From an uncultured Methylophaga sp. (GTDB lineage Bacteria; Pseudomonadota; Gammaproteobacteria; GCF-002020875): a DNA stretch of 64,000 nt. The stretch spans positions 1 to 64,000 of the forward strand of contig CALEHW010000003.1 in the NCBI GenBank assembly GCA_937877715.1, read 5' to 3'. The notes below the pieces were generated by a model, which worked only from the letters and a program-made list of their open reading frames with translations, was not told where the DNA came from and ran no database searches. Positions 3,977-47,655 of this stretch are shown piece after piece. Position 1 is the first letter of the stretch. Each line of letters begins with the position of its first letter. Both the position numbers and the translations under genes were made by a program.

Positions 3977-3986
3977 GAATAAAAAA

Positions 3987-6827: not shown

Positions 6828-6888
6828 CCTACACTTTTTTCTTCTCTCTCTGCACCGTTCTGTTCCAGTTCAATTGGCATTGATAGAT

Positions 6889-6908
6889 TTGACCTTTCCC
6901 TTGGTCAA
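6889..6908. promoter_or_regulatory. Dyad TTGACC-N8-GGTCAA upstream of the giant adhesin gene
   Basis: A perfect 6-bp inverted repeat with an 8-bp spacer lies in the 292-bp gap between the HlyD-like gene and the giant adhesin gene. No T-run follows, so it does not look like a terminator. It may be an operator. No matching regulator is recognised, and chance occurrence is possible. The rest of the gap is A/T-rich and holds the promoter candidate listed next; a weaker imperfect dyad around GCACA...TGTGC lies at about 6936-6956. Confidence 0.3.
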
Positions 6909-6985
6909 TAGCTCCTTGATTTTTAAGTGAAGAACGCACATATTCAATATTTGTGCATGGGGAGCAATATACGCATAATTACCCA

Positions 6986-7013
6986 TTGCATTTAGATGAA
7001 TCGTTGCTATAGT
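6986..7013 (+). promoter_or_regulatory. Candidate sigma-70 promoter for the giant adhesin gene
   Basis: A -35-like TTGCAT (6986-6991), a 16-bp spacer and a -10-like TATAGT (7008-7013) preceded by TG (extended -10). Initiation would be near 7020, giving a leader of about 100 nt before the ATG at 7120. An AAAGGA ribosome binding site sits at 7105-7110, 9 bases before that ATG. This suggests the giant gene can be expressed separately from the exporter genes. It was found by eye only. Confidence 0.35.
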
Positions 7014-7119
7014 CAGGAGTGTAAGTTGAGGCAATAAAATAATTATTAAACAAATAGATGGTTACATAATTCAATAAACTAGTTTAGTTATTAATACCCC
7101 AAATAAAGGATCAGTAAAT

Positions 7120-10100
7120 ATGTCAGTTCAAAATGCCCCGGTTGCCAACGACGACAATTATAACATTGATGAGGGTTCCAGTATCCAGATGACCAATCTG
7201 GCCAACGACTCCGATATAGAGGATGGCAGCCTGAACCCATCAAATATCACTATCGTCTCCCCATTCAGCAATGGTAGCGTGCAATCAGGTCTCTATACAC
7301 CTAATGCAGGATTTACTGGTGTCGACACCATGACATATAAGGTTGCTGACAGTGACGGTGAGTTTTCAAATGTTGCGACTGTGACTGTAAATGTGAACCA
7401 ATTTGATGCTGAACAGGATTATGCACGTGGTGCTGTAGAGGAACTCTTTGCTCGGGCAGGGATGAGTGCCATTGTTGATCTCTCGGTGACCGTTAGTTTT
7501 ACTGAGGAGACAGATTCTGACCACTTTGTTATTACAGCGGATGGTTATACCTACAATAGCCAAAATTTTGCCGGCAACAATATAATCAATATTGATCTCG
7601 TATTTACTGGAGATACTCTTACAAGCTATTCTGGATTGCCTGCAGAAGTCTCAGAGCTTACCCAGACGGCTATTGAGGAGTGGTATGAGTTCTCTGATCA
7701 TGATAATAATGACGAATATGCCCAGGCAGCCGTTGAGAACCTCTTTACTCAGGCAGATATCCATGCCTGGAGCAATTTGACTACATCGATGGAGGGGATT
7801 CCAAATGGGGATCGCATTACCATTCAAGCCGATTCTATTGGGCTGAATGGTGATTCGGTGATAGCCATCAATATTGTTCTTGAGTTTGAAAACAATTCTG
7901 TTACAAGCAAGGTGGGTATCCCTGCTGAATTAACTAATATCTTCAATGATGCCTATCTGAATACATGGTATGAGTATTCTGGGCCAGAACAACAGCGTCA
8001 GGAGGATCAGCAAGATTCTGGTTATTATGAGGGTGATGCAGGCCATACTGAAACCTATACCAATGTCTGGACATGGACTGAATTTCAATGGGTTGATGGT
8101 GGAGAGGTAGAAATTCTCTGGACGGTTGTGGATAAGGAGGAGAACGGTGTCTGGAGCTCTACCGAAACCAGCGGTAATGGCGATGTTCGTGTCCATAGCT
8201 CTAGCTGGGATGATACCACTCAAATAAGCACTTGGTCTGAGACATTCCATAATTCCGATAGCAGCATTAGCTACACAAGGACTGAAACTCAAAATCCTGA
8301 TGGTACATCCAGTGCTCGTTTGACTGGCAGCATTGACCACCTGTTGTGGATGCCGTTGGATGGTATATACAGCAGTGTGGATGTTACCGAGACGCGTGAT
8401 GCCTTCTGGAACACCATCAATGTCACTGGAACCGTTACTAATCCGAATAGTGAAGTATTAGCTGTAACCTACAGCAGTGATGGCGAGATTCTTGTCGGTG
8501 GAGAATCACTCTATGTAGCAGGAGGATTTGATGACCACTTCTCTGGAACAAATGAGTGGGAGTGGACGGATGACTGGAGTGGCATCACCTGGCGAGTTGT
8601 CGAGGGGGATGATGGAAGTGGTAACTGGGCATTTACCGAGACCGCCTACCGTGATGATGATGGTGATGGAACTGCTGAGACAGCCACAGGTGAAATGCGC
8701 ACCAACTACTCAACCTGGGATGATGCAACCAGCACCAATACCTGGTCTGAAACCTATACAGATGGCGATGATATCAGTTTTACTAGAACGGAGACCTACA
8801 ATAACGACGGCACCTCCAGCGAGACCATAACTGGCTCAAATGATCATATCGCCTGGTACTACCTGGGTGACGTCTACACCGATATCAGTGTGACTGTTAC
8901 ACGTGACGCCAACTGGAATACAGCCAGCATCAGCGGTACGGTAACGAAAGATAGTGCCACTGTTAATGTGACCTACAGTGATGGACAGATCATGATTGAT
9001 GGAAACTCCATTGATGATCTAGATGATGGAATGACTCAATTCCAGGACGGCGGCAGCAGTGAGTGGACCTGGACCGACTGGGAGGGCGTAACCTGGACAG
9101 TTACTGATACACAAAATGGCGACACCTGGACCTCAACTGAAATAGGTTCTAATGGGGATGCTCGCACACACACTAATACCTGGGATCCAACCACCAATAC
9201 ATCCACAATGACTGAGCACTTCGTCAGTGGAGATAGCGATGTAGATTACACTAGAACAGAGGCCTGGAATGATGATGGTACATCTACAGAGACCGTAACA
9301 GGCACCACTGATCAGATTGGGTGGATGTGGCTGGATGATGTCTACACCAATGTGGATGTAACTATTGACAGAGGCTGGGACTCTTTCTCTATTACAGGTA
9401 GTGCAACCAATTCGGGCGGGCAGCCTGTCACTATTGGTCTTGATCCAGCCACCGATCAGTTGACCATTGATGATGGTAGTGGTGCTGCTGTTGTTGATTT
9501 CAGTAGCCGTGAAGATATCAACTTTAATGAGCAGGAGAGTTGGGAGTCCAGCTGGGAGTGGACCGAGGTTACTGGAGGCGGAGAGGTGATCTGGGTGGTC
9601 ACTGATAGCCAGAAGGGAGAGACATGGAAATCAACTGAGATCGCCTATACGGAAGATGGGTTTGGCAACAGAACTGAAACAGGTGACGAAAGAAGTCACT
9701 CCTCGGTATGGAATGAGCGTACTCAGACCAGTATCTGGACAGACTCTGAGAAGAGTGCCGATGGCAACCGTGACTTTACCCGTGTGGAGACGATGCGTGC
9801 AGATGGTTCATCCACTGAGAAGATTAGCGGTAAGGTGGACAAATTTGGTGGCTATGATGATGTGGATGTCACCATTGAGCGTGACTCCAGCTGGAATATT
9901 ACAGCTGTTTCTGGTGAGGCAATAGTTCATGAAGGTGATGACCCACTGATTGTTGGGTTTGATGGAACCAGCATTACTGTTGGTGGTGTCGCGGTCGGTA
10001 GCTATGATGCAAGTGGCGCCCATGGCAACCAGGATAGCTGGGAGAGCACCTGGACTTGGACTGACTGGGAGGGTATTACCTGGACAGTAACTGACAAGCA

Positions 10101-13100
10101 GGAGGGTGACACCTGGACATCAACCGAGGTTGGTTCCAATGGTGATGTTCGTGTCCACAAAAATGCGTGGAGTGGTACAACAGAGACATGGAGTGAGAGC
10201 TTTACCAGTGCCGACGGCAATATTGATGTGACTCGTGTAGAGGTTAGGAGTAGCGATGGAACCTCCAGCGAGACCATTACCGGCAAGGATGATGGCTTTG
10301 GCTGGTGGGACTTTGAAACTTCTTATACCAATCTGGATATCACCATTGAGCGTGATGTCAACTGGGAGATTACTTCACTGACGGGTAGTGCAGATGGTGT
10401 TACCTCATTTGGGTTCAGTGATGGACATCTGACTATTGATGGTCAGGAGTTTAATGGTGGGGCATTTGATGATCGCTCCCATATGGTACAGGAGGATTGG
10501 GTCAATACCTGGGAGTGGACTGATGGAGAGGGGGTCACCTGGACGGTAACAGATAAACAGGATGGAGATACCTGGACCTCAATGGAAGAGGGCTCTAATG
10601 GTGATGTGCGCATCAATACATCTACTTGGGATGAAGCGCTGAATAACTATGTCAATATCACCTCCTTTAAGAGTGGGTCTTCAAATATTGACTACTCCAT
10701 TAAAGAGGTCTGGAACGATGACGGTAGTTCATCAGAGACTATTAAGGGTGCGACTGATCAGATTAGCTGGTTCAATCTTGGAGAGACCTACTCTGATGTT
10801 GATCTCACTATTGTGCGTGATGCAAACTGGAACACCATTAGTGTTACTGGTACAGGAACAGATGAGGGAGGAACACCTGCTGATTTTGATTGGTCTGTAG
10901 AGGGTCAATTGACCTTCAATGGTGTTGCTGTTGATTCTGGTGCTGGCGGGGGTGGAGCAGTAGCAGCGGATCAGATTTGGGAGACTACCTGGGAGTGGGT
11001 TGACTGGGAGGGAGTAACCTGGACAGTCACCGATAAACAGGAGGGAGATACCTGGAGCACTACCGAGGTAGGAGATAATGGAGACACCCGTGCTAGTGAA
11101 TCTAAGTGGGATCCAATCAAACAAATTTCCATCTGGACTGAGACTTTTGATAGCGGTTCGACCGATGTCGACTTCAAGCGAGTTGAGGTCTTCAATCCTA
11201 ACGGCACCTCTTCTGAAACCATTACCGGTACAATTGATCATGTTGCCTGGTGGCCACTGCATCAGATATACACAGATGTAGAGGTGGTAATTGAGCGTGA
11301 TGCCAACTGGAATGTTTATAGTGTTAATGGAACTGGTACCGTGGATGGCGAGACTGCCAGCTTCGGATGGTCATTAGATGATGAGCAGCTGACATTCAAT
11401 GGGGATGCTATTGAAGACCCTAGTGCCCACCATATGGATACCAACCAGTATTGGGAGAACAGCTATACCTGGACTGATGAAGGTCGAGGTATTACATGGG
11501 AGGTCGAAGAGGTTCAGGATGGGGAAACCTGGACGAGAACAGAGACGGCCTACACTGATGAAACCCTGACGACGACTACAGGAGAGATTCGCACAGAGAG
11601 CAATAGCTGGAATCATGAGACCGGCACCTCGACCTGGAGTCGAACAGAGACCGACCCCGATCGTGGCATTGACTTCACAATAACCGAGACCGGCACCTGG
11701 AACGAGGTGAGCCAGTCCAATGATTGGTCAGAGACAGTCACAGGTAGAACGGACCACATCCACTGGGTCGCTCTGGGTGAGGTGCAAGAGGTCAATATGA
11801 CCATCACCTATGATGATTATCACAATATCACGGATATCTCCGGTACCACGTCAGAAGGCGCTTGGGCTGCAGGAACCTGGACTCCAAATGGCACTACCCA
11901 TACCGTCACCTATGACAATGTGAATGGACAGATCCTTGTTGATGGCAACCCGTTTGTCATGACGTGGACCGATTGGGACGGCACCGTTTGGGCGGTTAAC
12001 GAGTCTCAGGATGGGGAGACACATACTAGAACCGAGACGGCATACACTGACGACACATTAGCAACTGAAACAGGTGCAAGCCGTGTCGAGACCCATACCT
12101 GGGATAACAATACTCAGACCAATACCATGACCGAGGTGGTGACCGATAATGCCAGTTCTGTCGTGATTAATGTAACCAAGGTCGAAACGCATCAGCCGGG
12201 TGAAGGCTCTAGTACCACAATCACCGGTTCTACCAATCATATCGAGTGGATGAATCTTGGTGAAACTTACACTAATCTGAATGTTACCGTTGAGCGAGAC
12301 GAGAACTGGAATATCAAGAATGTTTTCGGCACAGGAAATAATGAGAGTGGAGATATCAAGAACTTCGGGTTCAGTGGTGCTGACAATCAGTTGATGATTG
12401 GTGATGATGACGCTTCACTCTCTCTGGTTGCTGATGATATAGGCCAGAGTTGGAGCAATACCTGGACATGGGATGACCACGAAGGTGTAACCTGGACCGT
12501 AACCGACGAGCAGAAGGGGGACACCTGGATCTCAACCGAGGCTGGTAGCAATGGTGCGACTCGTATCTTTGAGTCCACATGGGATTCGTCTACGCAGACC
12601 AATACCTGGTCAGAGCATTTCACTAGCGCAGGTGGAGATATTAACTTCACCAGAACGGAGGTCTATGATGAGTCTACTCAGACCTCAACTATGACCACTA
12701 CTGGTACTTCTGACCATATTGGCTGGATGTACATGGGTGAGGTCTACACTGATATCAATGTTACTGAGACACGTGATTCAAGCTGGAATACAGGCTCTGT
12801 TACTGGTGTGGCGACTAACGCTTCCGGCGAGGTGGTTACCATTGGTTGGGAGGATGGTGAGCTTATTGTTGATGGTGATTCCCTAACAACAACTGGCCAG
12901 GGAGATTTCTCCAAATCAGCTGATAACTTTGAAAATGAGTGGACCTACTATGACGACAATGGCGTTGAGTGGACTGTTACCGAGTCTCAGCATGGCGATG
13001 CATGGGTCTCTGAGGAGAGAAGTGAGGATGGAGAATTCCGTCTCAATAAATCATTCTGGAATGAGGGAGATCAGGAGTCAAAGAATGTCACCAAATACAA

Positions 13101-16100
13101 GAGTGCTGATGGAGAGATCAAGTACAAGATGGTCGAGGTTCACAAGGCCGATGGTAAGACTGTTATCAAATACATGGGTGATAGTGACCATCTCGCTTGG
13201 GATTATCTTGGAGATGTTTATACCGAAATAGATGTAAAGATTGTTCGTGATGCTAACTGGAACATTTTAAGAGTCAGTGGAGTGGATACACCTCCAGGTA
13301 TTCTACCTGGAGATGAAGGTTTTATTGTTGCAACTGCGACAGACCCAGATGGTAATACCATCAATATTACCAAGGGTGGTCCTGGCCAGATTCTTGTGGA
13401 TGGTGTTGATATTAACCATCTCGGTGATGACTTCTTCCAGGGAATGAATACCGACCACTTTGATGATATTGAGAGCGGTTCATGGACGTTTGACTACACC
13501 AACGAGCAAGGCCAACTCATTAATGTGGTGGAAGAGGGTATTGCAACCGATATCGTAACTATTCAGACAGATGAACTGGATATCTCATTGGTGTTCGATG
13601 TTGACCAGAATTTCCTGATATCGGCAACCGGGTTGCCATCAGGTGTCACAGCCCTGACAGAGGGCGAATTAGAGAGTTGGTACTCCTTAGCCGTTGTAGA
13701 TCCAATGGATCAGCAGGGAGATATGAGCACTGAAGAGGAGATTACCTTTGTGACAACTAAGGTCACAGAGTACCTAATTACTAACAGTGTGGCGATAACT
13801 AATCTTCAGGTTGGTTTTGATATCGCAGATACCTGGTCTACAACTGAGACCAATACAGTGACAGATGAGATCTTTGTTCGCTCTCGTACAGAACAGCTCG
13901 ATAAGGAGATTGAGAGGGAAGAGAGATATGACAACCAGTCCAACTATGATTCAGGAAATGCATCCTGGTGGTATCAGGGCGAGCGCTCCTTTGAGGATAG
14001 TGAGTATGGCTTCAATATGGTGGAACAGAATACAAGTTCCACCGGTGAGGATCTGCGGGTTGTTATAACCACTCACCCCGATGGCGCCGTCACCATGAAT
14101 GCCACTGGAACGGCCTATCTTGAACAGGTTGATATGCTGGTTACCAATGTCAATGTCTCATCACAGATGGATGATGGCTGGAAGTTTGTTGACTTCCAGG
14201 GTAAGGGAACCATCGATAGCGGTGAATACAATGGAAAGGATGTTGTTATTACCTCTGATGGAACAGGCCCTTGGGGAGATCCTCTGATACATCTGACTGT
14301 CGATAATGGTGATGGCACATTTACGGATGTTCTTGGTTATGATGCTTCTGATGCTAAACAGGCTCACTTTGCTGACTCAGGCAACCCACTGGATCACCAT
14401 GTGCTGGTTGAAGGTGAGGGATATGTTACCTCTAGAAGTGGGTGGGTCTGGGAAGAGACCAGTTATACCAATAATAATGCGACAACCACCACTTTTGAGG
14501 GTGGGCGTGATAATAAGCCAAATGCAGCCATCACAGTAGTAGAGACACGTGCCTATCTGGATGGAAATACTGATGGTGAGATAGAGAGCATTGTCCAACA
14601 TGTCACCAATACCGGAGGTATGGACTACACCGCAACCTTTACGCTGAACGATAGATATGACGTTGAGATTCACTTCGAGGGTAGCAAGTACTTCCGTGGA
14701 GATCTCTACAATGATGTTGATGTCATTAAGGAGATTACCCCAAATGGGGATGTCCGAGTCGAGGGTAGTGCCAGGAAACTGGATGGAACCGAGGTCGAAT
14801 TCTTCAAGGGGCATGGTGATAGCAAGCTTGAGATCGTCAGTTTGGATCGTGATGGCAATATTCGTAAACTGACAGAAGAGGAAGAAGGTGGTGAGATCGA
14901 TCTTCCTGTTAATGAGATCTTCCAGTGGTCGTTTACCGATCATGGGGGGGTTGAATGGACCGTTATCGAGAAGTTTGATGGCAATATTGGTAGCCGTACT
15001 GAGACCAATACGGCTGGTGATCAGCGCACCTTTGAAGATACCTGGAATAGTGACGGTAGCTTTAGCTCTGTTATGACTGAGGCGCTTGTGGGGGAGGATG
15101 TCTTTACCGAGACACGCTCTTCAACCCCTAACTATGACACTGGCACAAGCACCTATAGTGAGGTAATGGCTGTTGTTACTACCCGCGCTGGTGCGGAGGT
15201 TGAGAACTATACTGAGACTATCACCTTTAATGCGGATTACTCATCCACTTATGTGGTTGCAGGTACCATTGACTTCATGGGAGGCCTCTATTCAACGGGT
15301 GGGGGCAGTGTGACATCCCAACAGGATACTAACTGGGTCACCACCTCGGTGTCAGGTACCGTGACCAGAGTAAGTGATAGTAAGGAATTCGCTGTATCCA
15401 TGGATGGTACCCATCCGTGGGGTGAGCCAAAATTGGTTCTGACCCACGGTGTTGTGGGTGACGGTGATTATGAACAGATTACTGATGACCGTACGGTGAT
15501 TGATAACAAGGATGCGGACAATTCTGATCCAACAGCAGTGAATGATGCCGCCTCTACTAGTGAGAACCAGTCTGTAATTATTGATGTGCTAGTTAATGAT
15601 TCAGATCCTGATGAAGGTGATGAAGATGTCCTTTCCATCAAGTCTGTAGGTGAGGCCTCTAACGGTGAGGTATTCCTCGCAAATGGTGAGGTAGTCTATA
15701 CACCGGACTATGGTTACTCTGGTAGCGATAGCTTTAGCTACACAATAACCGATGGTCGTGGTGGTATTGATACGGGTGAGGCAACAATTGATGTGACAGG
15801 TGTGAATGCTGCGCCGGTCGCTGTGGATGATGCGTATACAGTCCTACAGGGTAGTGCTTCAGTTGCATTGGATCTTCTTGCTAATGATAGTGATGAGGAG
15901 GGTGATGATCTGTCAATTACTGCGATTACCCCAATACCAACAACGGCTGGTGGCTGGGTTAATATTTTTGGTGATATCGTCACATACGAACTTCCTTCAG
16001 ATACGTTTGTTGGGGAGGATAGTTTTACCTACTACATTACGGATGGAGGCACTTATGCCCCAGTTGATAAGCCAAATGCAGAGGTTACCATCACTGTAGA

Positions 16101-19100
16101 GTCATTGAATAATGCTCCAGTTGCAGTTGCTGATGCTGTCACCCTGGATGAGGACGAGGAGGCAGTACAGATTCGTGTTCTCACGAACGATACTGATGCG
16201 GATAGTGATACCCTCTCCATTGACTCCTTTACCAACCCTGATCATGGTACGGTCAGGCTACTTGGTGGGCATCTCTTCTATACACCGGATTCTGACTATG
16301 TGGGGGCTGATACTTTTACATACACAGTTGTAGATCCATCAGGTGCAAGTGCGACCGAGACAGTGACCTTAACTGTGAGTGAAGTCAATGATGGGCCGGT
16401 TACCATTACCGATATCCTGAATGTAGAGGAAGGCTCTGAGGGTGTAACTGTAAATGTGCTTGCCAATGATTATGACAGGGAAGATCACTCCTTTACCCTG
16501 ACATCTGTAAGTGATGCCTCTCATGGCACTGTGGTGATGGGTTCTGGCGGAATGGTTACCTATACACCTGGAACTGAGAGTGGCTCCAACTATACTGGAG
16601 CGGATTCATTCACCTATGTGACAACAGACAGTGAAGGGCTGCAATCTACGGGAACCGTTTCGATCACTGTAAGTGAGCTGAATGATGCGCCAGTTGCCAA
16701 GGCAGATACCAAGAGTATTGCTGAGGATTCCAGTAACAATAGGATTGCAGTGCTTGATAATGACTCCGACCCTGAAAATGATACGCTGGAGCTAGATTCT
16801 GTAGGTGCCCCAGATCACGGTACAGTTGAGATGTCTGGTAATAGTGTTCTCTATACGCCTGAGGCTAACTATAGTGGCACCGATACCTTTACCTATAAGG
16901 TGAGCGATGGCAATGGCGGCACATCAACTGGAACCGCTACTGTTACAGTTAACGGCTCAAATGATGCGCCAACTGCGGTTGATGATATTCTGGGTACAGT
17001 ATCCTCTGCCAAGCCTGTCAAGCTGGATCTGCTATCCAATGATTATGACGTGGATAGTGGTGACTCTATATCTGTCGTCTCTGTTGGAACAGCTACTAAC
17101 GGCAACGTTACGCTTAGTGGCGGGTCGGTACGTTATGTGGCAGATCGTGGTTCCTCAGGCAAGACGGACAGTTTTGATTATACGATTGAGGATGAGAGTG
17201 GGGAGCAGTCTACAGCCACTGCAAGCTTTACACTTTCGACTAATACTAATCCAATTGCAACCAATGACAAGGTAACAGTGTTGGAAGATGCGGATACTGC
17301 CGAAATCGATGTTCTCGATAATGATACGGATGCAGACTCTGATAAGGTGCAGGTGCTGAAGGTAGGTACCGATCCAAATCACGGAACTACTACCGTCACT
17401 AATGGCAAGCTATTCTATCAACCAGATGCCAATTACAATGGTTCCGACACCTTCACATATATTGTTAAGGATGGGAATGGAGGCCGCGATGAGGCAACCG
17501 TGACGTTAACAGTCACTGCAGTCAATGATGCACCGACAGCAATCAATGATACAGCCTCGGTTGAGGTCGACTCCTCTGCTACTACAATCTCTGTTCTTGG
17601 AAATGATAGTGATATTGATGGGGATAGCCTGGAGATTTCCAGTGTAACTGATCCGCTTCATGGAACCGCTGAAGTTCTGGAGGATAGTAGTGGTGTTACC
17701 TATGTACCGGAAGCTGGTTATACGGGTGCAGACAGCTTTACCTACAAGGTCTCGGATGGAACAATTACATCAGTCGCAACAGTCAATGTAACGGTGACAG
17801 CTGGAAATACAGTTCCAACATCGACCAATGATACAGATACAGTTATTGAGGATTCCAGTAGCAATCAGATTGATGTCCTTACCAATGACAGTGACGCAGA
17901 TGGTGATGATCTGAGTGTGGTTTCGGTCACCCAGGGTGAGCATGGTTCTGTCCAACTGACTAGTGGTAAGGTCTTCTATACACCGGATGATAACTATACA
18001 GGGAGCGACAACTTTAGCTATACCGTGAAAGACGGGAATGGTGGGGTTACCTCTGGCAAGGTTACAATTTCGGTCACAGCTGTCGAGGATGCCCCAACAG
18101 CTGTAAACGATGAGCTTGATTCAATGGAAGCGGGTACGGCTAAGATTAAGGTGGATCTGATCTCCAATGACAGTGATCCAGATGGTGATGATATTTCCAT
18201 CACCGATGTTAGTAGTGCCAAGTATGGAACAACTAGCTTTGTCAATGGGCAGGTCTACTATCAGCCCGGCTCAACAGCCGGTGTGAGTGACTCTTTCAGT
18301 TACACTCTGAAGGATAGCAATGATAATGAAACCACCGGTTATGTCCGTGTTGATATTACTGAGTCTAACAGTGCCCCAACAGGTAGCGTGAAGATTTCTG
18401 GTGGGGCACAGCCCTATCAGACCCTTACTGTCTCCAATACTCTGGCGGACGATGATGGGCTGGGTGACTTTAGCTATCAGTGGTACAAGGATGGCACAGC
18501 AATGCAGGGTGAGACAGGCACGACCTATCAGGTTACGCTTGAGGATGTCGGCTCTGTATTCAGTGTTGCGGTAAGTTATACGGACGACAACGGTGCGGCA
18601 GAGTCTGTCTCTAGTGATGCAACTAATACAGTGACTGTTCTGGATACGCCATTCTCATTTGTTGCAGGATCGGTAGATGTGGATGGTATCCTGACGCTGA
18701 CCCTGAAGGTAGATATTGATGCGATCAGTAGCAGAAGTGATATCACTAGTATCACTGCGGCTGATCTGGCGCTCAATATCGACTGGGATGACTTTGCAGC
18801 GCTTGATGGATCCAGTGATGCGAAGTTCTCAACATCTACCATTGGTAGTAATTTGATTGTACTCACATCTTCTTCTACATCTGATAGTAATACCTTCGAT
18901 GAGATTACCCTGGCATCAATTCGTACTAGTGATCCACTGTTGACGATGGTTGATTCTGATGCAACCAACGATGCGTCTAGCTCAATTGGTACAACAGCAG
19001 ATCTCATAACGTTGCAGTTGAAGCCAATGGATCCATCCGAGAAGATAGCTATCACCCTAAGTGGTACAGTGGTTGCGAATCAGGGGCAGGTTGAGTTTGC

Positions 19101-20514
19101 CCAGTACGATGCAACCACCAACAATATCACTGGTGTAGCAACCAACAGCTCACCTACAGGAGCAGTGACGGTCTCTGGTACGGTTGCTGTTGATGAGGTG
19201 CTGACTGCAAGCCATACTATTACTGATGCAGATGGAATGGGTGTGGTCTCCTATCAGTGGTATCGAGATGGAGATGCCATTAGCGGTGCTGCCGATGAGA
19301 CCTATACGATAGTAACAGCAGATATAAACAAATCACTCACTGTCAAAGCCAGCTATACGGATGGTAGTAGCACTGCAGAGACGGTTTCAAGTGGAGGGCA
19401 CACTGTTACCCAGTCAACTGAGAACAAGCCATTCATGTTTACATCGGAACTGGTGACTGCTGCCGAGGCGTCTACCGCACTCTATGGTGCAGACTACTCT
19501 GAGGATTCAGCAGAAACCATCCTTAAACTAACGCTGAATGGTGATATCACTCGGTTTGATACAGCTAATGCCGCTTCCTACACCTCTATTGCAGGCGCTG
19601 AAATTGATTTCACTATAGATTGGAATCAGTTTGAGGCGATTGACTACACCGTTGCCAGTGGATATAGCGACGCGACCTTTGAGATCAACAAGGAGTACAC
19701 CGGGTCGCTATTCATGGGTGCGGTGACCAATGATAATAATGAGTTTAGCAAGGTGGTGCTCTCTTCCCTGAATACATCAAAAAAACCGGTGCTGACGCTG
19801 GTAGATAGTGTCGAGACAACAGGTAGAGGATATACCGATCAGCCAACTAGTGATGATTTTGTAACGATCTACTTAAATCCTGTCGATTCTTATCGTGATG
19901 TAGAGATCACATTCGATGGTGCAATCTCTGTAAATCAGGGTGAGGATACCTTTAGTCAGCTGAGTCATTCACTCGAGGTTCAGGTAAGTACCTATGATGC
20001 GACCATTGAGACACCAGCACTGCTAACCACTAATGGTGGCAAGTTGCTTGATAATCTCTCGGTTAACCCCTGGTATAACGGTGATGATACAGGAGAATCT
20101 CTGGCGGTCGTCTCTGGTGAGATATCGATTGAAAATACAACAGTATTCGATGAGGTCAAGCTCTCAGTGGTTGACGCATACGACTCCAGCATTAACATCT
20201 CTGATGCAATTGATGTATTGAGACATATCGTTAACCTTGAGGCTATTACAAATGGGTCTGCCAATTACCATGCAGCAGATGTCAATAATGACGGCAATAT
20301 CAATATCACAGATGCAATTGCAATCTTGAGAGATATTGTTAATTTGGAGACAATTGATACCTTTGATCTGATCGATGATCAGGGAGATCGTGTTACTCAG
20401 TTGGATGCTGGTTCGTCCGGAACTCCACCAGAGTGGACAATTGTTGCTAACGGTGATGTCAATCTCTCTGGTGGCTTTGAGAATGACTATGTGGTTGCGC
20501 AAGAAATTGTCTAA
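7120..20514 (+). CDS. Giant 4464-residue repeat adhesin with C-terminal dockerin, probable T1SS substrate
   Basis: No N-terminal signal peptide, so export by the adjacent type I system is inferred. Modules in order: a Big_9 cadherin-like domain (residues 1-93); two related units of about 95 residues (95-288) ending in a GLPAE...W pattern; about 11 Trp-rich repeats of 154-170 residues (about 313-2104); degenerate related sequence with another GLP...W unit near 2143-2195 (about 2105-2800); ten Big_9 repeats of about 95 residues (about 2801-3750); an Ig-like domain (about 3751-3840); a cohesin-like domain (about 3845-4007); a second Ig-like (4009-4097); a second cohesin-like (about 4106-4297); and a type I dockerin (4352-4411). 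The composition is Asp/Thr/Ser-rich, with almost no Cys. I see no RTX nonapeptides. The likely role is a surface adhesin or biofilm matrix protein, perhaps calcium-dependent. The AAAGGA ribosome site supports this start. Confidence 0.88.
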   Translation: MSVQNAPVANDDNYNIDEGSSIQMTNLANDSDIEDGSLNPSNITIVSPFSNGSVQSGLYTPNAGFTGVDTMTYKVADSDGEFSNVATVTVNVNQFDAEQDYARGAVEELFARAGMSAIVDLSVTVSFTEETDSDHFVITADGYTYNSQNFAGNNIINIDLVFTGDTLTSYSGLPAEVSELTQTAIEEWYEFSDHDNNDEYAQAAVENLFTQADIHAWSNLTTSMEGIPNGDRITIQADSIGLNGDSVIAINIVLEFENNSVTSKVGIPAELTNIFNDAYLNTWYEYSGPEQQRQEDQQDSGYYEGDAGHTETYTNVWTWTEFQWVDGGEVEILWTVVDKEENGVWSSTETSGNGDVRVHSSSWDDTTQISTWSETFHNSDSSISYTRTETQNPDGTSSARLTGSIDHLLWMPLDGIYSSVDVTETRDAFWNTINVTGTVTNPNSEVLAVTYSSDGEILVGGESLYVAGGFDDHFSGTNEWEWTDDWSGITWRVVEGDDGSGNWAFTETAYRDDDGDGTAETATGEMRTNYSTWDDATSTNTWSETYTDGDDISFTRTETYNNDGTSSETITGSNDHIAWYYLGDVYTDISVTVTRDANWNTASISGTVTKDSATVNVTYSDGQIMIDGNSIDDLDDGMTQFQDGGSSEWTWTDWEGVTWTVTDTQNGDTWTSTEIGSNGDARTHTNTWDPTTNTSTMTEHFVSGDSDVDYTRTEAWNDDGTSTETVTGTTDQIGWMWLDDVYTNVDVTIDRGWDSFSITGSATNSGGQPVTIGLDPATDQLTIDDGSGAAVVDFSSREDINFNEQESWESSWEWTEVTGGGEVIWVVTDSQKGETWKSTEIAYTEDGFGNRTETGDERSHSSVWNERTQTSIWTDSEKSADGNRDFTRVETMRADGSSTEKISGKVDKFGGYDDVDVTIERDSSWNITAVSGEAIVHEGDDPLIVGFDGTSITVGGVAVGSYDASGAHGNQDSWESTWTWTDWEGITWTVTDKQEGDTWTSTEVGSNGDVRVHKNAWSGTTETWSESFTSADGNIDVTRVEVRSSDGTSSETITGKDDGFGWWDFETSYTNLDITIERDVNWEITSLTGSADGVTSFGFSDGHLTIDGQEFNGGAFDDRSHMVQEDWVNTWEWTDGEGVTWTVTDKQDGDTWTSMEEGSNGDVRINTSTWDEALNNYVNITSFKSGSSNIDYSIKEVWNDDGSSSETIKGATDQISWFNLGETYSDVDLTIVRDANWNTISVTGTGTDEGGTPADFDWSVEGQLTFNGVAVDSGAGGGGAVAADQIWETTWEWVDWEGVTWTVTDKQEGDTWSTTEVGDNGDTRASESKWDPIKQISIWTETFDSGSTDVDFKRVEVFNPNGTSSETITGTIDHVAWWPLHQIYTDVEVVIERDANWNVYSVNGTGTVDGETASFGWSLDDEQLTFNGDAIEDPSAHHMDTNQYWENSYTWTDEGRGITWEVEEVQDGETWTRTETAYTDETLTTTTGEIRTESNSWNHETGTSTWSRTETDPDRGIDFTITETGTWNEVSQSNDWSETVTGRTDHIHWVALGEVQEVNMTITYDDYHNITDISGTTSEGAWAAGTWTPNGTTHTVTYDNVNGQILVDGNPFVMTWTDWDGTVWAVNESQDGETHTRTETAYTDDTLATETGASRVETHTWDNNTQTNTMTEVVTDNASSVVINVTKVETHQPGEGSSTTITGSTNHIEWMNLGETYTNLNVTVERDENWNIKNVFGTGNNESGDIKNFGFSGADNQLMIGDDDASLSLVADDIGQSWSNTWTWDDHEGVTWTVTDEQKGDTWISTEAGSNGATRIFESTWDSSTQTNTWSEHFTSAGGDINFTRTEVYDESTQTSTMTTTGTSDHIGWMYMGEVYTDINVTETRDSSWNTGSVTGVATNASGEVVTIGWEDGELIVDGDSLTTTGQGDFSKSADNFENEWTYYDDNGVEWTVTESQHGDAWVSEERSEDGEFRLNKSFWNEGDQESKNVTKYKSADGEIKYKMVEVHKADGKTVIKYMGDSDHLAWDYLGDVYTEIDVKIVRDANWNILRVSGVDTPPGILPGDEGFIVATATDPDGNTINITKGGPGQILVDGVDINHLGDDFFQGMNTDHFDDIESGSWTFDYTNEQGQLINVVEEGIATDIVTIQTDELDISLVFDVDQNFLISATGLPSGVTALTEGELESWYSLAVVDPMDQQGDMSTEEEITFVTTKVTEYLITNSVAITNLQVGFDIADTWSTTETNTVTDEIFVRSRTEQLDKEIEREERYDNQSNYDSGNASWWYQGERSFEDSEYGFNMVEQNTSSTGEDLRVVITTHPDGAVTMNATGTAYLEQVDMLVTNVNVSSQMDDGWKFVDFQGKGTIDSGEYNGKDVVITSDGTGPWGDPLIHLTVDNGDGTFTDVLGYDASDAKQAHFADSGNPLDHHVLVEGEGYVTSRSGWVWEETSYTNNNATTTTFEGGRDNKPNAAITVVETRAYLDGNTDGEIESIVQHVTNTGGMDYTATFTLNDRYDVEIHFEGSKYFRGDLYNDVDVIKEITPNGDVRVEGSARKLDGTEVEFFKGHGDSKLEIVSLDRDGNIRKLTEEEEGGEIDLPVNEIFQWSFTDHGGVEWTVIEKFDGNIGSRTETNTAGDQRTFEDTWNSDGSFSSVMTEALVGEDVFTETRSSTPNYDTGTSTYSEVMAVVTTRAGAEVENYTETITFNADYSSTYVVAGTIDFMGGLYSTGGGSVTSQQDTNWVTTSVSGTVTRVSDSKEFAVSMDGTHPWGEPKLVLTHGVVGDGDYEQITDDRTVIDNKDADNSDPTAVNDAASTSENQSVIIDVLVNDSDPDEGDEDVLSIKSVGEASNGEVFLANGEVVYTPDYGYSGSDSFSYTITDGRGGIDTGEATIDVTGVNAAPVAVDDAYTVLQGSASVALDLLANDSDEEGDDLSITAITPIPTTAGGWVNIFGDIVTYELPSDTFVGEDSFTYYITDGGTYAPVDKPNAEVTITVESLNNAPVAVADAVTLDEDEEAVQIRVLTNDTDADSDTLSIDSFTNPDHGTVRLLGGHLFYTPDSDYVGADTFTYTVVDPSGASATETVTLTVSEVNDGPVTITDILNVEEGSEGVTVNVLANDYDREDHSFTLTSVSDASHGTVVMGSGGMVTYTPGTESGSNYTGADSFTYVTTDSEGLQSTGTVSITVSELNDAPVAKADTKSIAEDSSNNRIAVLDNDSDPENDTLELDSVGAPDHGTVEMSGNSVLYTPEANYSGTDTFTYKVSDGNGGTSTGTATVTVNGSNDAPTAVDDILGTVSSAKPVKLDLLSNDYDVDSGDSISVVSVGTATNGNVTLSGGSVRYVADRGSSGKTDSFDYTIEDESGEQSTATASFTLSTNTNPIATNDKVTVLEDADTAEIDVLDNDTDADSDKVQVLKVGTDPNHGTTTVTNGKLFYQPDANYNGSDTFTYIVKDGNGGRDEATVTLTVTAVNDAPTAINDTASVEVDSSATTISVLGNDSDIDGDSLEISSVTDPLHGTAEVLEDSSGVTYVPEAGYTGADSFTYKVSDGTITSVATVNVTVTAGNTVPTSTNDTDTVIEDSSSNQIDVLTNDSDADGDDLSVVSVTQGEHGSVQLTSGKVFYTPDDNYTGSDNFSYTVKDGNGGVTSGKVTISVTAVEDAPTAVNDELDSMEAGTAKIKVDLISNDSDPDGDDISITDVSSAKYGTTSFVNGQVYYQPGSTAGVSDSFSYTLKDSNDNETTGYVRVDITESNSAPTGSVKISGGAQPYQTLTVSNTLADDDGLGDFSYQWYKDGTAMQGETGTTYQVTLEDVGSVFSVAVSYTDDNGAAESVSSDATNTVTVLDTPFSFVAGSVDVDGILTLTLKVDIDAISSRSDITSITAADLALNIDWDDFAALDGSSDAKFSTSTIGSNLIVLTSSSTSDSNTFDEITLASIRTSDPLLTMVDSDATNDASSSIGTTADLITLQLKPMDPSEKIAITLSGTVVANQGQVEFAQYDATTNNITGVATNSSPTGAVTVSGTVAVDEVLTASHTITDADGMGVVSYQWYRDGDAISGAADETYTIVTADINKSLTVKASYTDGSSTAETVSSGGHTVTQSTENKPFMFTSELVTAAEASTALYGADYSEDSAETILKLTLNGDITRFDTANAASYTSIAGAEIDFTIDWNQFEAIDYTVASGYSDATFEINKEYTGSLFMGAVTNDNNEFSKVVLSSLNTSKKPVLTLVDSVETTGRGYTDQPTSDDFVTIYLNPVDSYRDVEITFDGAISVNQGEDTFSQLSHSLEVQVSTYDATIETPALLTTNGGKLLDNLSVNPWYNGDDTGESLAVVSGEISIENTTVFDEVKLSVVDAYDSSINISDAIDVLRHIVNLEAITNGSANYHAADVNNDGNINITDAIAILRDIVNLETIDTFDLIDDQGDRVTQLDAGSSGTPPEWTIVANGDVNLSGGFENDYVVAQEIV
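7402..7983 (+). repeat. Two diverged protein repeats of about 95 residues with a GLPAE...EW/TW end
   Basis: Both units open with a helix-like YAxxAVExLF stretch, continue with a beta-rich stretch (DxxxITADG/QADS, xxINIxLxF) and close with GLPAE or GIPAE followed by W-Y-E-[FY]-S. A third, partial copy is at about 13546-13705 (GLPSG...ESWYS), beyond the Trp-rich array. I do not recognise this unit as a named family. Confidence 0.6.
8059..13430 (+). repeat. Tandem array of about 11 Trp-rich repeats (462-508 bp each)
   Basis: Successive units start near 8059, 8550, 9056, 9538, 10036, 10498, 10975, 11452, 11950, 12451 and 12931. The unit core is W-x-W-T-D-[WG]-E-G-[VI]-T-W-T-V-T-D-x-Q-x-G-D-T-W, then a GSNGDxR segment, SxTWD, WSE, F-T-R-x-E, DGTSSETITG, DHIxW, Y-T-D-[VI]-x-V-T-x-x-R-D-x-N-W-N and a variable hydrophobic end with a DGxxL/I strand. 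Copies are diverged at DNA level, so this is an old array. More degenerate relatives follow at about 13480 and 14920. The beta-rich pattern with regularly placed Trp suggests a carbohydrate- or surface-binding fold, but no named family is recognised. Confidence 0.85.
15520..18369 (+). repeat. Ten tandem Big_9/cadherin-like repeats (about 285 bp each)
   Basis: Units begin near 15520, 15808, 16108, 16387, 16681, 16963, 17245, 17527, 17809 and 18088. Each starts N-x-x-P-x-A-x-x-D and continues with a [IV]-x-V-L-x-N-D-[ST]-D-x-[DE] calcium-site-like motif, H/N-G-x-V, Y-T/Q-P-x-x-x-Y-x-G-x-D-x-F-x-Y and D-G-x-G-G. This is the usual cadherin-like stalk repeat of bacterial surface adhesins, which extends the protein away from the cell and is often rigidified by calcium. 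Confidence 0.85.
20173..20352 (+). other. Dockerin type I domain coding segment at the end of the giant adhesin
   Basis: Two EF-hand-like segments, each followed by a helix: D-x-Y-D-x-x-I-x-I-S-D-A-I-D-V-L-R-H-I, then D-V-N-N-D-G-N-I-N-I-T-D-A-I-A-I-L-R-D-I. The second loop has all the expected Asp/Asn/Gly calcium positions; the first is less regular. Dockerins bind cohesins, and cohesin-like domains are present in this protein and in the protein at 1-2610. A tail of about 50 residues follows and contains a further GDVNLSG half-loop. Confidence 0.8.
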
Positions 20515-43593: not shown

Positions 43594-44886
43594 CTATCGT
43601 TTGAGCTTAATGGTTACAGGGAAGGCGAATCCAATTTTGTCATTGTTGACTTCATCAGGAAACACTTCAAAAGGCTGTGCCATCTCGACCATCTGCTCAA
43701 CAGCTCGATCCAGTATCTCATGTCCTGAGCTTTGAATAATCTCAGTTTCAAGCAATTCGCCACTACGGTTCAATACGAAACCAACCAAGACCTTGCCCTG
43801 AATTCCCTGCTCCTCGGCAACGTACTTTGGATAGAGGGTGAATCCAGTCAGCTTGACACGCATCCGTGCACGATACGCAAAGCCAATCCCTTTCGCACCA
43901 GAATAACGACTTCTCCAGCTTTTAGATCTACTGCTCTTTACATTATCTGATTTAACTGTCGATAGCCTCTGACCTAATTGAGTCTCTTCTGGTAACACAG
44001 GCTTCCAATCTTTGGCAGTAACCTGAGGCAACATCTCCATCTCCAGTGTGTCAAACTCAATCTGTTCGATCTGAATTTCTGCAAGGGAAACTCCCATCTC
44101 TTCAGCTGCGTCTGAAAGTAGGTTGGTAGATATTAGAGATTCCAGATCTGTTGGTATCAACTCTTCTTCCATCTCTGATTGCGCCACCATCAAGGCATCA
44201 CCTGTCGGCATCTCAATATTCTTTGGCTCAGGCAATCCAGCTGGTGCCTTCATTGGCGTTGATGGCAAATCTGGCACAAATATTTGGACCAGACGAGAAT
44301 CAGGCTTCTTCAGATCTAATACATGGTTATCTGTTGGAAGTTCCATTGCAGCAACTGGTGCTAACTCAGGTGTCCTATCTGTTGGAGTATCAATGCCCTT
44401 TAGTTCTGGCATCCTGGCCGATATTTCCACAGGTATTGATGGTGTAGATGGTGTTATTTCCGGGGCTGTATCTACTGTAATCTCTGGTGATGTATTCATC
44501 TTCAGCTCTAACGTTGCACCCACAGACATCTCTGTCTGCTCCTCCATTTCCACACTTTCACTTTCCAATTCCTTACTAGGGATAACCTCAAGGGCAACGC
44601 CAGAAGAGGCAGGTAAGAGTTCTACAAGTTGTTGCTGTGACTCGTCCAGAGATACCATGGGTATCACATCTTCATCAATAAGGGCTTCACTTTTGATGGT
44701 CTCTGGTTGCTCCAAAATTAGCTGCTCAAGAATCTCCTGATCAGCGAGCATTACGGTAAAAGATGTCTCAACAATACTCTTAACAGGCAAGGCTGACTGG
44801 TAAATTGGGGCATATTGAATCAGCACAATGTGTACCAACATTGAACTTATTAGCGCAAAAAACCATTGCCGCGAACGAATAATCAT
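43594..44886 (-). CDS. TonB-family energy transducer with a long acidic linker
   Basis: 430 residues. One N-terminal membrane segment (about 7-27), a very long Glu/Pro/Ser-rich linker (about 40-330) that should span the periplasm, and a C-terminal TonB domain (about 340-428) with LYPKYVAEEQGIQGKVLVGFVLNRSG, the conserved P-x-x-A...G-V signature. It would transduce the proton-motive force from ExbB/ExbD to an outer-membrane partner. The linker lacks the usual Lys-Pro/Glu-Pro blocks of classical TonB and is about three times as long. It is last in the operon; no TonB-dependent receptor gene is adjacent. The receptor could be elsewhere, or the partner could be a non-receptor protein. Confidence 0.85.
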   Translation of the reverse strand: MIIRSRQWFFALISSMLVHIVLIQYAPIYQSALPVKSIVETSFTVMLADQEILEQLILEQPETIKSEALIDEDVIPMVSLDESQQQLVELLPASSGVALEVIPSKELESESVEMEEQTEMSVGATLELKMNTSPEITVDTAPEITPSTPSIPVEISARMPELKGIDTPTDRTPELAPVAAMELPTDNHVLDLKKPDSRLVQIFVPDLPSTPMKAPAGLPEPKNIEMPTGDALMVAQSEMEEELIPTDLESLISTNLLSDAAEEMGVSLAEIQIEQIEFDTLEMEMLPQVTAKDWKPVLPEETQLGQRLSTVKSDNVKSSRSKSWRSRYSGAKGIGFAYRARMRVKLTGFTLYPKYVAEEQGIQGKVLVGFVLNRSGELLETEIIQSSGHEILDRAVEQMVEMAQPFEVFPDEVNNDKIGFAFPVTIKLKR

Positions 44887-44888
44887 AA

Positions 44889-45293
44889 CTAAGGAGCTAC
44901 CTCAGTAATTAGCTCAACCCTTCGTACCCCACTATTACGAACCCCCTCAAGAAGCTTAACAACATCATGGGAGTCCACTCGATTGTCAGCGTGGATTTCC
45001 ACAGACGGAGGAATGCCATTGCGATAGGCCTCATCAATTAGATACTGCAGTTGGTAACTATTCCTGATCTCTCTCTCACTAACAGCCATATTTCCATTCA
45101 TATCAACAAAGATAGAAATATCCATTGTCTCCATCCGCGCATCACTACTGGAGCGTGGGTGCTCAATGTCCCAGAAAGAGGGAGATTTAACTGTGCCTGC
45201 AACCAAAAAAAAGATAATTAAGAGGAAAATCACACTAACCAATGGAGTCATATCCAGTTCGGAGTGTTTTTTTCTATGGTAGTGAAACTGCAT
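44889..45293 (-). CDS. ExbD-like protein lacking the channel Asp (ExbD2)
   Basis: 134 residues: one membrane helix (about 17-38) and a periplasmic C-terminal domain. The helix reads TPLVSVIFLLIIFF, where the family has TPLIDV; the conserved Asp (D25 of E. coli ExbD) is Ser20, codon AGT at 45236-45234. That Asp is the essential proton-carrying residue, so this copy should not carry protons itself. Two bases separate it from TonB and two from the other ExbD, so they are co-translated. Pairs of ExbDs are known, for example ExbD1 and ExbD2 of Xanthomonas. Confidence 0.85.
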   Translation of the reverse strand: MQFHYHRKKHSELDMTPLVSVIFLLIIFFLVAGTVKSPSFWDIEHPRSSSDARMETMDISIFVDMNGNMAVSEREIRNSYQLQYLIDEAYRNGIPPSVEIHADNRVDSHDVVKLLEGVRNSGVRRVELITEVAP

Positions 45294-45295
45294 AA

Positions 45296-45694
45296 CTATC
45301 TAATCAGACTTACCAGGGAGGCTCCGCCAGCACGAAGTTGATCCATCACTTGCACTACCTGCTGTAGTGGAATATTGGAGTCTGGGCGGACAATAAAACG
45401 GATGGTTGGCCTATCCTGCAGAAGTTGAGTAACTTTGGATGATATATTGGAGGCGATAACATGCCGCCCATTAAAATCGACAATACCATCCTCATGAATA
45501 CGGACTAGTGTTGCATCGTGCCAGGCACTCTTCCCCTCCCCCTTTTCAGCAGGAATATCGAGAGAGAATTTTCGTTGCTGAGAGAAGTTGGTGGTTAGCA
45601 TAAAGAATATAAGCAGCAGAAATACCACATCAATCAATGAGGTCAGACTGAGCCACCGTCTTTTTGATTGATAACCAGCTGCACCGAATTGCAT
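45296..45694 (-). CDS. ExbD-like protein with intact channel Asp (ExbD1)
   Basis: 132 residues from ATG 45694, chosen because AGAGG sits at good spacing upstream; an in-frame GTG nine bases earlier would add three residues. One membrane helix with TSLIDVVFLLLIFFML keeps the conserved Asp (residue 22). The periplasmic domain is about 90 residues. It should dimerise with itself or with the Ser-bearing ExbD encoded two bases downstream, inside an ExbB pentamer. It is preceded by ExbB after a 54-bp gap. Confidence 0.87.
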   Translation of the reverse strand: MQFGAAGYQSKRRWLSLTSLIDVVFLLLIFFMLTTNFSQQRKFSLDIPAEKGEGKSAWHDATLVRIHEDGIVDFNGRHVIASNISSKVTQLLQDRPTIRFIVRPDSNIPLQQVVQVMDQLRAGGASLVSLIR

Positions 45695-45757
45695 CAGAGT
45701 CACCTCTTCTATTTAACTACTGCTAAGCAGGATTTGTGGATGTCACTTACTATACAA

Positions 45758-46396
45758 TCAGACAGAATGACGGATAGAGCTAAGCGTACGTGTTACAGCA
45801 TCTCCCATATCCTGTCGTACACGTTCTACAATCCCCTCAAGCCAGTTTACGGCAGCCAGTGCCGGAATGGCGATAGCAAGACCAAAAGCAGTAGTGATTA
45901 GTGCCTCCCAGATACCCCCAGCCAGCATGGTGACATCTACCTGAACTCCGGCATTTTCAAGCTGCATGAAAGCCTGAATCATCCCCAGCACAGTACCTAA
46001 CAGCCCAAGCAGCGGACTGAGATGAGCAACTGCATCAAGGCCACGTATATATGACGTAAGCTGCTCAAGCTGTGTTCTTCCCTCACTCTCAAGCTCCTCT
46101 TTAGCCATACTGTTATCTTCTATAGATGATGTACTATCAGAAAGCTTAATTGCTTTCTCCATAACCCGAGAGACTGGACTCTTTTTTATGGAAAGCTCGG
46201 TAACAGCAATACTTTTCTGGCCTCGCTCAATACTTTGTAACACCTTCTCCACATAATCATTGGAGCCAAACAGAATTTGTTTGGACTGAAAGTGGTAGAG
46301 CTTTAGCAGAAAAATTGCAAACCCATAGACAGAGAGTGCCAGCAGAATAATGGCTACTGGGCCACCTTTGCTCACCAGTAATTCCAGTCCTATCAT
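45758..46396 (-). CDS. ExbB/TolQ/MotA-family proton channel protein
   Basis: 212 residues. One helix near 10-30, a cytoplasmic segment, and two more helices (about 120-143 and 160-185) with AHLSPLLGLLGTVLGMIQAF and GGIWEALITTAFGLAIAIPALAAVNWLEG. These are the classic ExbB/TolQ signature, with the conserved Thr and Gly-rich pattern. It forms the pentameric stator for the ExbD pair. AGGAGT precedes the ATG. It follows a small periplasmic protein gene by 12 bp. Confidence 0.9.
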   Translation of the reverse strand: MIGLELLVSKGGPVAIILLALSVYGFAIFLLKLYHFQSKQILFGSNDYVEKVLQSIERGQKSIAVTELSIKKSPVSRVMEKAIKLSDSTSSIEDNSMAKEELESEGRTQLEQLTSYIRGLDAVAHLSPLLGLLGTVLGMIQAFMQLENAGVQVDVTMLAGGIWEALITTAFGLAIAIPALAAVNWLEGIVERVRQDMGDAVTRTLSSIRHSV

Positions 46397-46408
46397 AAAA
46401 AATACTCC

Positions 46409-46915
46409 TTACTTGAAGAGTCTGACAGAAGATTTGGTGCCAGTCCTGATCATGCTCATACAGTTGGCAACCTCATCTCCAGCACTGGTACATGATGTCA
46501 TGCGATTGAGAAGAATGCTCCCCACCTCGCTACATTTTGTATCTTTCATGGGGACTAATTTGACTACCGTCTTATTAGCCATAACCTTCTGAAAATCCGC
46601 AAGGAAGTGAGCTGTGATGATCTCATCCTTGTTAAAGGCAAAGAGCTCAGATTTCAACTCGGAAAACTCTGTATTAGTCTGGTTGGAAAACCTGACATAG
46701 GCGACACAAAGATCATCCCTTTGCTCCAGCTTGTTGATCTCCATATAGAGTTTGCTGACTGGTGCAGTAGCGCGCTCCTGATCTTGTGCTGATACAGTTT
46801 CTGTTGCGGTATCCGTCTCTGCAACCACAGTCTCAACATCACCTTCCGCAGCAGTAATTGAGGCGGAAAACAGGATAGTAGTCAGGAATCCAATTATCTT
46901 AGTTTTGCTTGGCAT
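46409..46915 (-). CDS. Small periplasmic protein of unknown function in the TonB operon
   Basis: 168 residues from ATG 46915; a longer GTG start at 46927 is also open but has no better ribosome site. A signal peptide (about 1-24, ending TAAEG) and a mainly helical body with four Cys in pairs (DLCVAY, DTKCSEV, SCTSAG, ANCMSM), so two disulfides are likely. No family is recognised. It is next to exbB, 12 bp away, so it may be a periplasmic regulator or a structural part of this Ton complex. Confidence 0.65.
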   Translation of the reverse strand: MPSKTKIIGFLTTILFSASITAAEGDVETVVAETDTATETVSAQDQERATAPVSKLYMEINKLEQRDDLCVAYVRFSNQTNTEFSELKSELFAFNKDEIITAHFLADFQKVMANKTVVKLVPMKDTKCSEVGSILLNRMTSCTSAGDEVANCMSMIRTGTKSSVRLFK

Positions 46916-46968: not shown

Positions 46969-47655
46969 TTAATTGCAGTGTAGCGCCAGGTACTCAAGGT
47001 CACTATCCTCCACCTCACCCAGCTCCCAATCTCCACGCATATTGGCATGATTCATAGCTGCCTGTCGAGCCTCTTCAGAGGCATCCTGTACAATAGATAA
47101 TATCTGACCAGCATATATCAGATCTGCATCAATAATTTGCTCTCTATTGGCGCACAACAACAGGGGCCAAAGTGCGGCATCCCCATAAACCTCCTCAGAG
47201 GATGAGATAGTCCACAGGCTATCACCGTCAACAACCTCAATCTTTGTCGCTCTATCAATCTCTTCCTCCGCAGCTTTCTCTTTATTAGCTATATCGGCAG
47301 ACTCTGGCAGCCCAACCTCAACCGAGGCTGTTGGACTAACCTCCTCAACTCGTGCAGCCTCAATCTCAACAATCTCTGCCGGCTTCTCTGGAATTGGCTC
47401 CCCTGCCTTCTCGGCAGTATCGACAGCTACAGCATATTTAGATCTAATTTCCAGAATCTCATCACACTCTGGTTGGGCATAATTTTTATCCCAAAAACCA
47501 GTATGGATACACTCACCAAAAGGGGTGCGAACAACTCCACCAAAACCATCTACCAGATAGCCCTCGAAGCTACCCGCCTGGGGATTGCTGAATGGAAGAA
47601 GTGCTGATAATACAAAAATTATTGTAGATAGAGCTCTGTGGTCCGTCTTTTTCAT
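46969..47655 (-). CDS. LysM-domain periplasmic protein, first gene of the TonB operon
   Basis: 228 residues. A signal peptide (about 1-27), then GGVVRTPFGECIHTGFWD...PECD, a motif seen at the N terminus of some OmpA-like proteins, a Glu-rich linker, and a LysM domain (about 140-190) with VVDGDSLWTISSSEEVYG. LysM domains bind peptidoglycan. It could hold the Ton complex to the cell wall or guide it across the periplasm. It precedes the small periplasmic protein gene by 53 bp and heads the operon. Confidence 0.78.
   Translation of the reverse strand: MKKTDHRALSTIIFVLSALLPFSNPQAGSFEGYLVDGFGGVVRTPFGECIHTGFWDKNYAQPECDEILEIRSKYAVAVDTAEKAGEPIPEKPAEIVEIEAARVEEVSPTASVEVGLPESADIANKEKAAEEEIDRATKIEVVDGDSLWTISSSEEVYGDAALWPLLLCANREQIIDADLIYAGQILSIVQDASEEARQAAMNHANMRGDWELGEVEDSDLEYLALHCN

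Follow-up and report, generated by a model that had tools for sequence, protein, structure and literature searches.

Does a Ton motor need a protonatable residue on both of its ExbD chains? In rotary models of such motors, a proton passes to one Asp, a 36-degree step follows, and the other Asp is the next to be served (PMC9022066, PMC12905483). The window analysed here, a stretch of 64,000 nucleotides from an uncultured Methylophaga sp. (contig CALEHW010000003.1), contains two adjacent exbD genes, the second of which encodes a serine where the Asp is expected. Here, we describe an analysis of this pair and of related pairs in two classes of the phylum. The evidence favours a Ton energiser operon, ExbB-ExbD1-ExbD2-TonB, in which ExbD1 and ExbD2 are likely to form an obligate heterodimer, with the sole acid on ExbD1 and ExbD2 fixed in a neutral state.

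The ExbD2 gene and its operon

ExbD2 (44889..45293, minus strand) is encoded by a 134-codon open reading frame whose translation starts MQFHYHRKKHSELDMTPLVSVIFLLIIFFLVAGT..., and its 134 residues match Pfam PF02472 with an E-value of 7.6e-20 (71.7 bits against a cut-off of 25.4, residues 7-131 matched), the periplasmic domain being complete. Alignment of a profile of ExbD2 relatives with solved structures places Ser20 (codon AGT, 45234..45236, minus strand) in the column of Asp25 of E. coli ExbD (PDB 6TYI). The original prediction, that Ser20 stands in place of the proton-carrying Asp and that the sister ExbD1 keeps this residue as Asp22, was exact on both points; Asp22 is encoded by GAT at 45629..45631 on the minus strand and is the pair's only protonatable site at this position. 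The Asp of the transmembrane helix (Asp25 in E. coli) is absent from ExbD2 and from all of the orthologues read, which have Ser or Asn instead. Judged by its sequence, ExbD2 is an ExbD homologue without the defining catalytic feature of the family, and it should be filed, within the Asn/Ser ExbD2 clade, as an Asp-less ExbD subunit rather than as a proton-carrying ExbD.

The operon is read from the minus strand in the order LysM-like secreted protein, small secreted protein, ExbB, ExbD1, ExbD2 and TonB, with gaps of only two bases between ExbD1 and ExbD2 and between ExbD2 and TonB. ExbB and TonB flank the ExbD pair, and this gene order is repeated in related loci. ExbD1 (45296..45694, minus strand; PF02472, E 4.6e-23), a member of the ExbD1 clade, has 132 residues counted from an ATG, with an alternative GTG start possible at 45703, and its pore Asp is invariant across the ExbD1 proteins of 22 aligned pairs. 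ExbB (212 residues, 45758..46396, minus strand; Pfam MotA_ExbB, E 1.3e-30) possesses both pore threonines, in the motifs GLLGTV and ALITTA, and a motif survey found the two threonines retained in the ExbB proteins of other pair systems (GLLGTV, ALxTTA). ExbD1 thus has what a working ExbD requires, a pore Asp and a partner ExbB with its threonines. TonB (430 residues, 43594..44886, minus strand; Pfam TonB_C, E 2.1e-11) bears an S-x3-H motif in its N-terminal helix, and the His of this helix is present in nearly all of the loci read.

Directly upstream of ExbB lies the gene for a small secreted protein with a conserved Cys (family F5; 46409..46915, minus strand), for which a Pfam search gave no match. 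Homologues are found in this position in the genus and likewise precede ExbB in other operons of the Asp/Asn-pair type; the protein is possibly an accessory part of these Ton systems. Such loci (L137:6603-7007, L130:9968-10471, L160, L163, L171 and L070) belong to several other families in two classes. The LysM-like secreted protein (family F9; 46969..47655, minus strand; NCBIfam LysM-type matches) adjoins the operon in five loci, all within the genus. Elsewhere in the window (2663-20514, plus strand), the list of open reading frames includes a repeat-rich protein of 4464 residues whose C-terminal part is dockerin-like. It is found behind genes for a TolC-like protein, an HlyD-like adaptor and an ABC transporter, an arrangement that suggests a giant adhesin secreted by the type I route.

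The top NCBIfam match of both ExbD proteins is the TolR model TIGR02801, yet at 50.2 bits it falls far below the cut-off of 127.3, the downstream gene encodes a TonB-domain protein, and neither TolB nor Pal was found among the neighbouring open reading frames read. In the genera beyond this one, the wide neighbourhoods of 12 loci include TonB-dependent receptors, and iron-type ABC ATPases lie close to several pairs, which suggests that the Asp/Asn(Ser)-pair systems are transport energisers.

Conservation of the pair within and beyond the genus

Serine, encoded by AGT in five and by AGC in one, occupies the key ExbD2 position in each of the six sequenced members of the genus, and the surrounding helix, DMTPLVSVIFLLIIFFLVAGT, is identical in the six genomes. 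The other five genomes likewise have the order ExbD1-ExbD2-TonB behind ExbB. ExbD2 is under strong purifying selection in the six species (pN/pS 0.18-0.34), synonymous change is saturated between most pairs, and the fixation of Ser20 in the face of this divergence argues that its conservation is more than chance. The source genome encodes three further ExbD proteins, every one with the Asp, and has three TonB-dependent receptors elsewhere and five TonB-domain matches; no receptor gene adjoins this operon in the genus. Since contig C64 groups one receptor, one ExbD and one TonB, a conventional Ton system is probably present in this genome as well.

Beyond the genus, profiles were searched against 369 genomes of the window's class and 399 of the phylum, and a DNA pattern was searched against the same number of genomes of the window's class (369) and 190 genomes of another class of the phylum. 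The pattern required an Asn, Ser, Lys or Arg codon at the key position and set no condition on neighbouring genes; it matched in 36 of 369 genomes of the window's class and 24 of 190 of the other class. Among 30 pattern loci read in the window's class, 27 encode an ExbD, and an Asp-type ExbD lies immediately upstream in every one of these; in the other class an Asp-type ExbD is upstream in 25 of the 25 matches that were ExbD. The matches L097, L101 and L113 proved on reading not to be ExbD.

Sixty-five distinct tandem pairs of this type were collected from the two classes, 59 of them Asp/Asn and six Asp/Ser, the latter confined to this genus. The two genes are adjacent or overlapping, and the Asp-type comes first and the Asn- or Ser-type second in 65 of 65, a reversal never having been seen. 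An Asp is present in all 55 of the distinct unpaired ExbD proteins examined, and no Asp-less ExbD without an Asp partner was found among the loci surveyed; the sampling was biased toward ExbD2-like loci, and these counts show that Asp-less ExbD proteins invariably come in pairs; they do not imply that every tandem pair is of the Asp/Asn(Ser) type. Asp/Asp tandem pairs do occur (L187 and L001), and one of them (L187:165-1062, minus strand), with Asp in both proteins (IDLAPMLDFVLNLLIFF), would serve well as a control for pairs of the Asp/Asn type. A scan of genome contigs returned a single distant Bacteroidota locus, in which both adjacent ExbD proteins have the Asp, and searches of plasmids gave no matches.

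Several individual loci deserve mention. Two genomes have two different Asp/Asn pairs each (L022/L043 and L098 in G043; L048 and L115 in G175), hinting at separate clients for each pair. The sequence ISLVPMIDVLCCLLIFFML is the ExbD1 helix of a divergent Asp/Asn pair found at L118-L120 (G322, G223 and G107), and at L118 the ExbD2 frame is poorly readable. An open frame at L160:1003-1866 that joins ExbD1 to ExbD2 was considered as a Rosetta-stone fusion and rejected: the ExbD1 tail runs on in another frame to its normal end, followed by the GTG start of ExbD2, and a one-base frameshift, real or from sequencing, is the simplest explanation.

When the key residue is masked, a tree built from 74 sequences recovers the ExbD1 proteins (99/94), the ExbD2 proteins (99/72), the Asn-type ExbD2 proteins (97/84) and the Ser-type (100/100) as groups, and a tree of 122 sequences agrees with it. 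ExbD1 and ExbD2 are thus separate paralogue clades with differing N-terminal flanks, as would be expected of obligate partners. The mean charge of these cytoplasmic N-terminal flanks is +1.15 (basic) in ExbD1 and -1.42 (acidic) in ExbD2, and in 58 of 65 pairs the flank of ExbD1 carries the more positive charge of the two, a raw count of pairs that ignores their kinship; the opposite charges fit two specialised partners.

The ExbD1 and ExbD2 topologies conflict over the genus itself, whose ExbD1 is nested among ExbD1 proteins with Asn-type partners (98/80), whereas its ExbD2, the Ser clade, forms a long branch beside all of the Asn-types. A serine codon AGY is one step from AAY (Asn) and two steps from GAY (Asp). 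Because of these codon distances and the nesting of the genus ExbD1 among those with Asn partners, a change from Asn to Ser within this genus is most probably the history, in preference to one from Asp to Ser, although the ExbD2 topology alone is no proof. In the more distant ExbD2 orthologues read, Asn is at the key position in every one and Asp in none. The original prediction that Ser replaces Asp therefore stands as regards the missing Asp and requires revision as regards the serine, which is specific to the genus, Asn being the general rule from which it most probably derives.

A predicted ExbD1-ExbD2 heterodimer and its alternatives

In the arrangement that we favour, the ExbD homodimer inside the ExbB pentamer would be replaced by an ExbD1-ExbD2 heterodimer. 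ExbD1 alone would supply the proton carrier at the pore position, and ExbD2 would contribute the same helix and periplasmic domain with a permanently neutral residue, mostly Asn and here Ser. Rotation itself is still a model; if it holds, such a motor would be intrinsically asymmetric and would need about one proton for every 72 degrees of rotation, against one for every 36 degrees in the two-acid models. We infer the heterodimer, its 5:1:1 stoichiometry, the step size and the client transporter; the heterodimer is supported by the substitution, its conservation, the strict pairing, the intact partners and the Ton-type neighbourhood. Since a conserved Asn predominates, the ExbD2 position seems to call for a neutral polar residue and not just to tolerate one. 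An Asn at the matching place in MotB serves as a mimic of the protonated Asp (PMC9022066), and E. coli ExbD(D25N) has no activity (PMC11658791), so that ExbD2 by itself would not be expected to run the motor.

ExbD1 homodimers combined with a separate role for ExbD2 would produce an identical genomic picture. In the strongest alternative of this kind, the ExbD1 homodimer is the active form, and ExbD2 has a regulatory or dominant-negative function, at times taking the place of one ExbD1 and so idling the motor. The inactivity of the E. coli D25N protein, together with the Asn of 59 of 65 ExbD2 proteins, is in keeping with such a role, and the tandem exbD2 of Xanthomonas has a function separate from iron uptake (PMC3551730). 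The strict 1:1 pairing of overlapping or nearly touching genes argues against it, as does the finding of an ExbD1-clade member alone just once, at L118 with its poorly readable partner; that single case aside, these observations suggest that the two proteins are needed jointly and in equal amounts, and we consider a regulatory ExbD2 unlikely.

Two further arrangements are less probable. ExbD1 and ExbD2 could each form homodimers within ExbB pentamers of their own, and the complex without Asp would then act passively, for instance in holding TonB or peptidoglycan. Although ExbD2 does keep a full periplasmic domain, there is a single ExbB gene per pair and, among the loci surveyed, no Asp-less ExbD was found without its Asp partner, which makes this organisation improbable. 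Slightly weaker still is the proposal that another acid of ExbD2, such as Asp14, carries protons and that both subunits are active. Asp14, six residues ahead of Ser20, is invariant in the six members of the genus; however, an equivalent Asp is common in ordinary ExbD proteins that keep the pore Asp (LDIAPLID, IDMTPMLD) and is not conserved among the Asn-type ExbD2 proteins. We therefore rejected Asp14 as a matched compensation for the missing residue and think it very unlikely that it substitutes for the pore Asp. Finally, a sequencing error, frameshift or decaying duplicate, in whose favour there is nothing specific beyond a genome in 74 contigs, is ruled out for practical purposes by the same residue in six genomes, its two synonymous codons, the low pN/pS and the intact reading frames.

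Relation to known systems and significance

The operon described here shares with the E. coli Ton system the pore threonines of ExbB, the ExbD fold, and the transmembrane His and C-terminal domain of TonB, and differs from it in having two unlike ExbD proteins, one without Asp25. The tonB1 operon of Sphingobium SYK-6, Xanthomonas and the Ton-Oar system of Myxococcus likewise combine one exbB, two adjacent exbD genes and tonB, the comparison with the Xanthomonas and Myxococcus pairs being one of gene content. In SYK-6, Asp25 is reported to be conserved in ExbD1 and ExbD2 alike (PMC8599685), unlike the 65 of 65 pairs described here, in which the Asp is in the first ExbD only, and the gene order is tonB-exbB-exbD1-exbD2 instead of exbB-exbD1-exbD2-tonB. 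The AglRQS system of Myxococcus has one MotA/ExbB-type protein and two different MotB/TolR-type partners, whether these form a heterodimer being an open question (PMC9389320). AglQ and AglS are both described as having the conserved Asp, and the system powers gliding instead of transport. Operons with two ExbD proteins are already known; a literature search of open-licence papers turned up no account of the recurrent, strictly ordered Asp/Asn(Ser) pair, whether with Asn or with Ser in ExbD2.

In the rotary models of ExbBD, TolQR and MotAB two Asp residues alternate; a conserved pair that has a single Asp offers a natural test of whether the two are required. The broader claim, that a 5:1:1 single-site Ton motor is widespread, with ExbD2 locked in a protonated-like state and strict alternation between two carboxylates unnecessary, seems to us evenly balanced. 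If it is true, nature has already built a one-acid motor that lies outside the current two-acid rotary models. Furthermore, since the two ExbD chains are unlike in sequence, ExbD1/ExbD2 would represent a labelled dimer, whose chains can be told apart and whose roles and positions could be separated in structures and by cross-linking.
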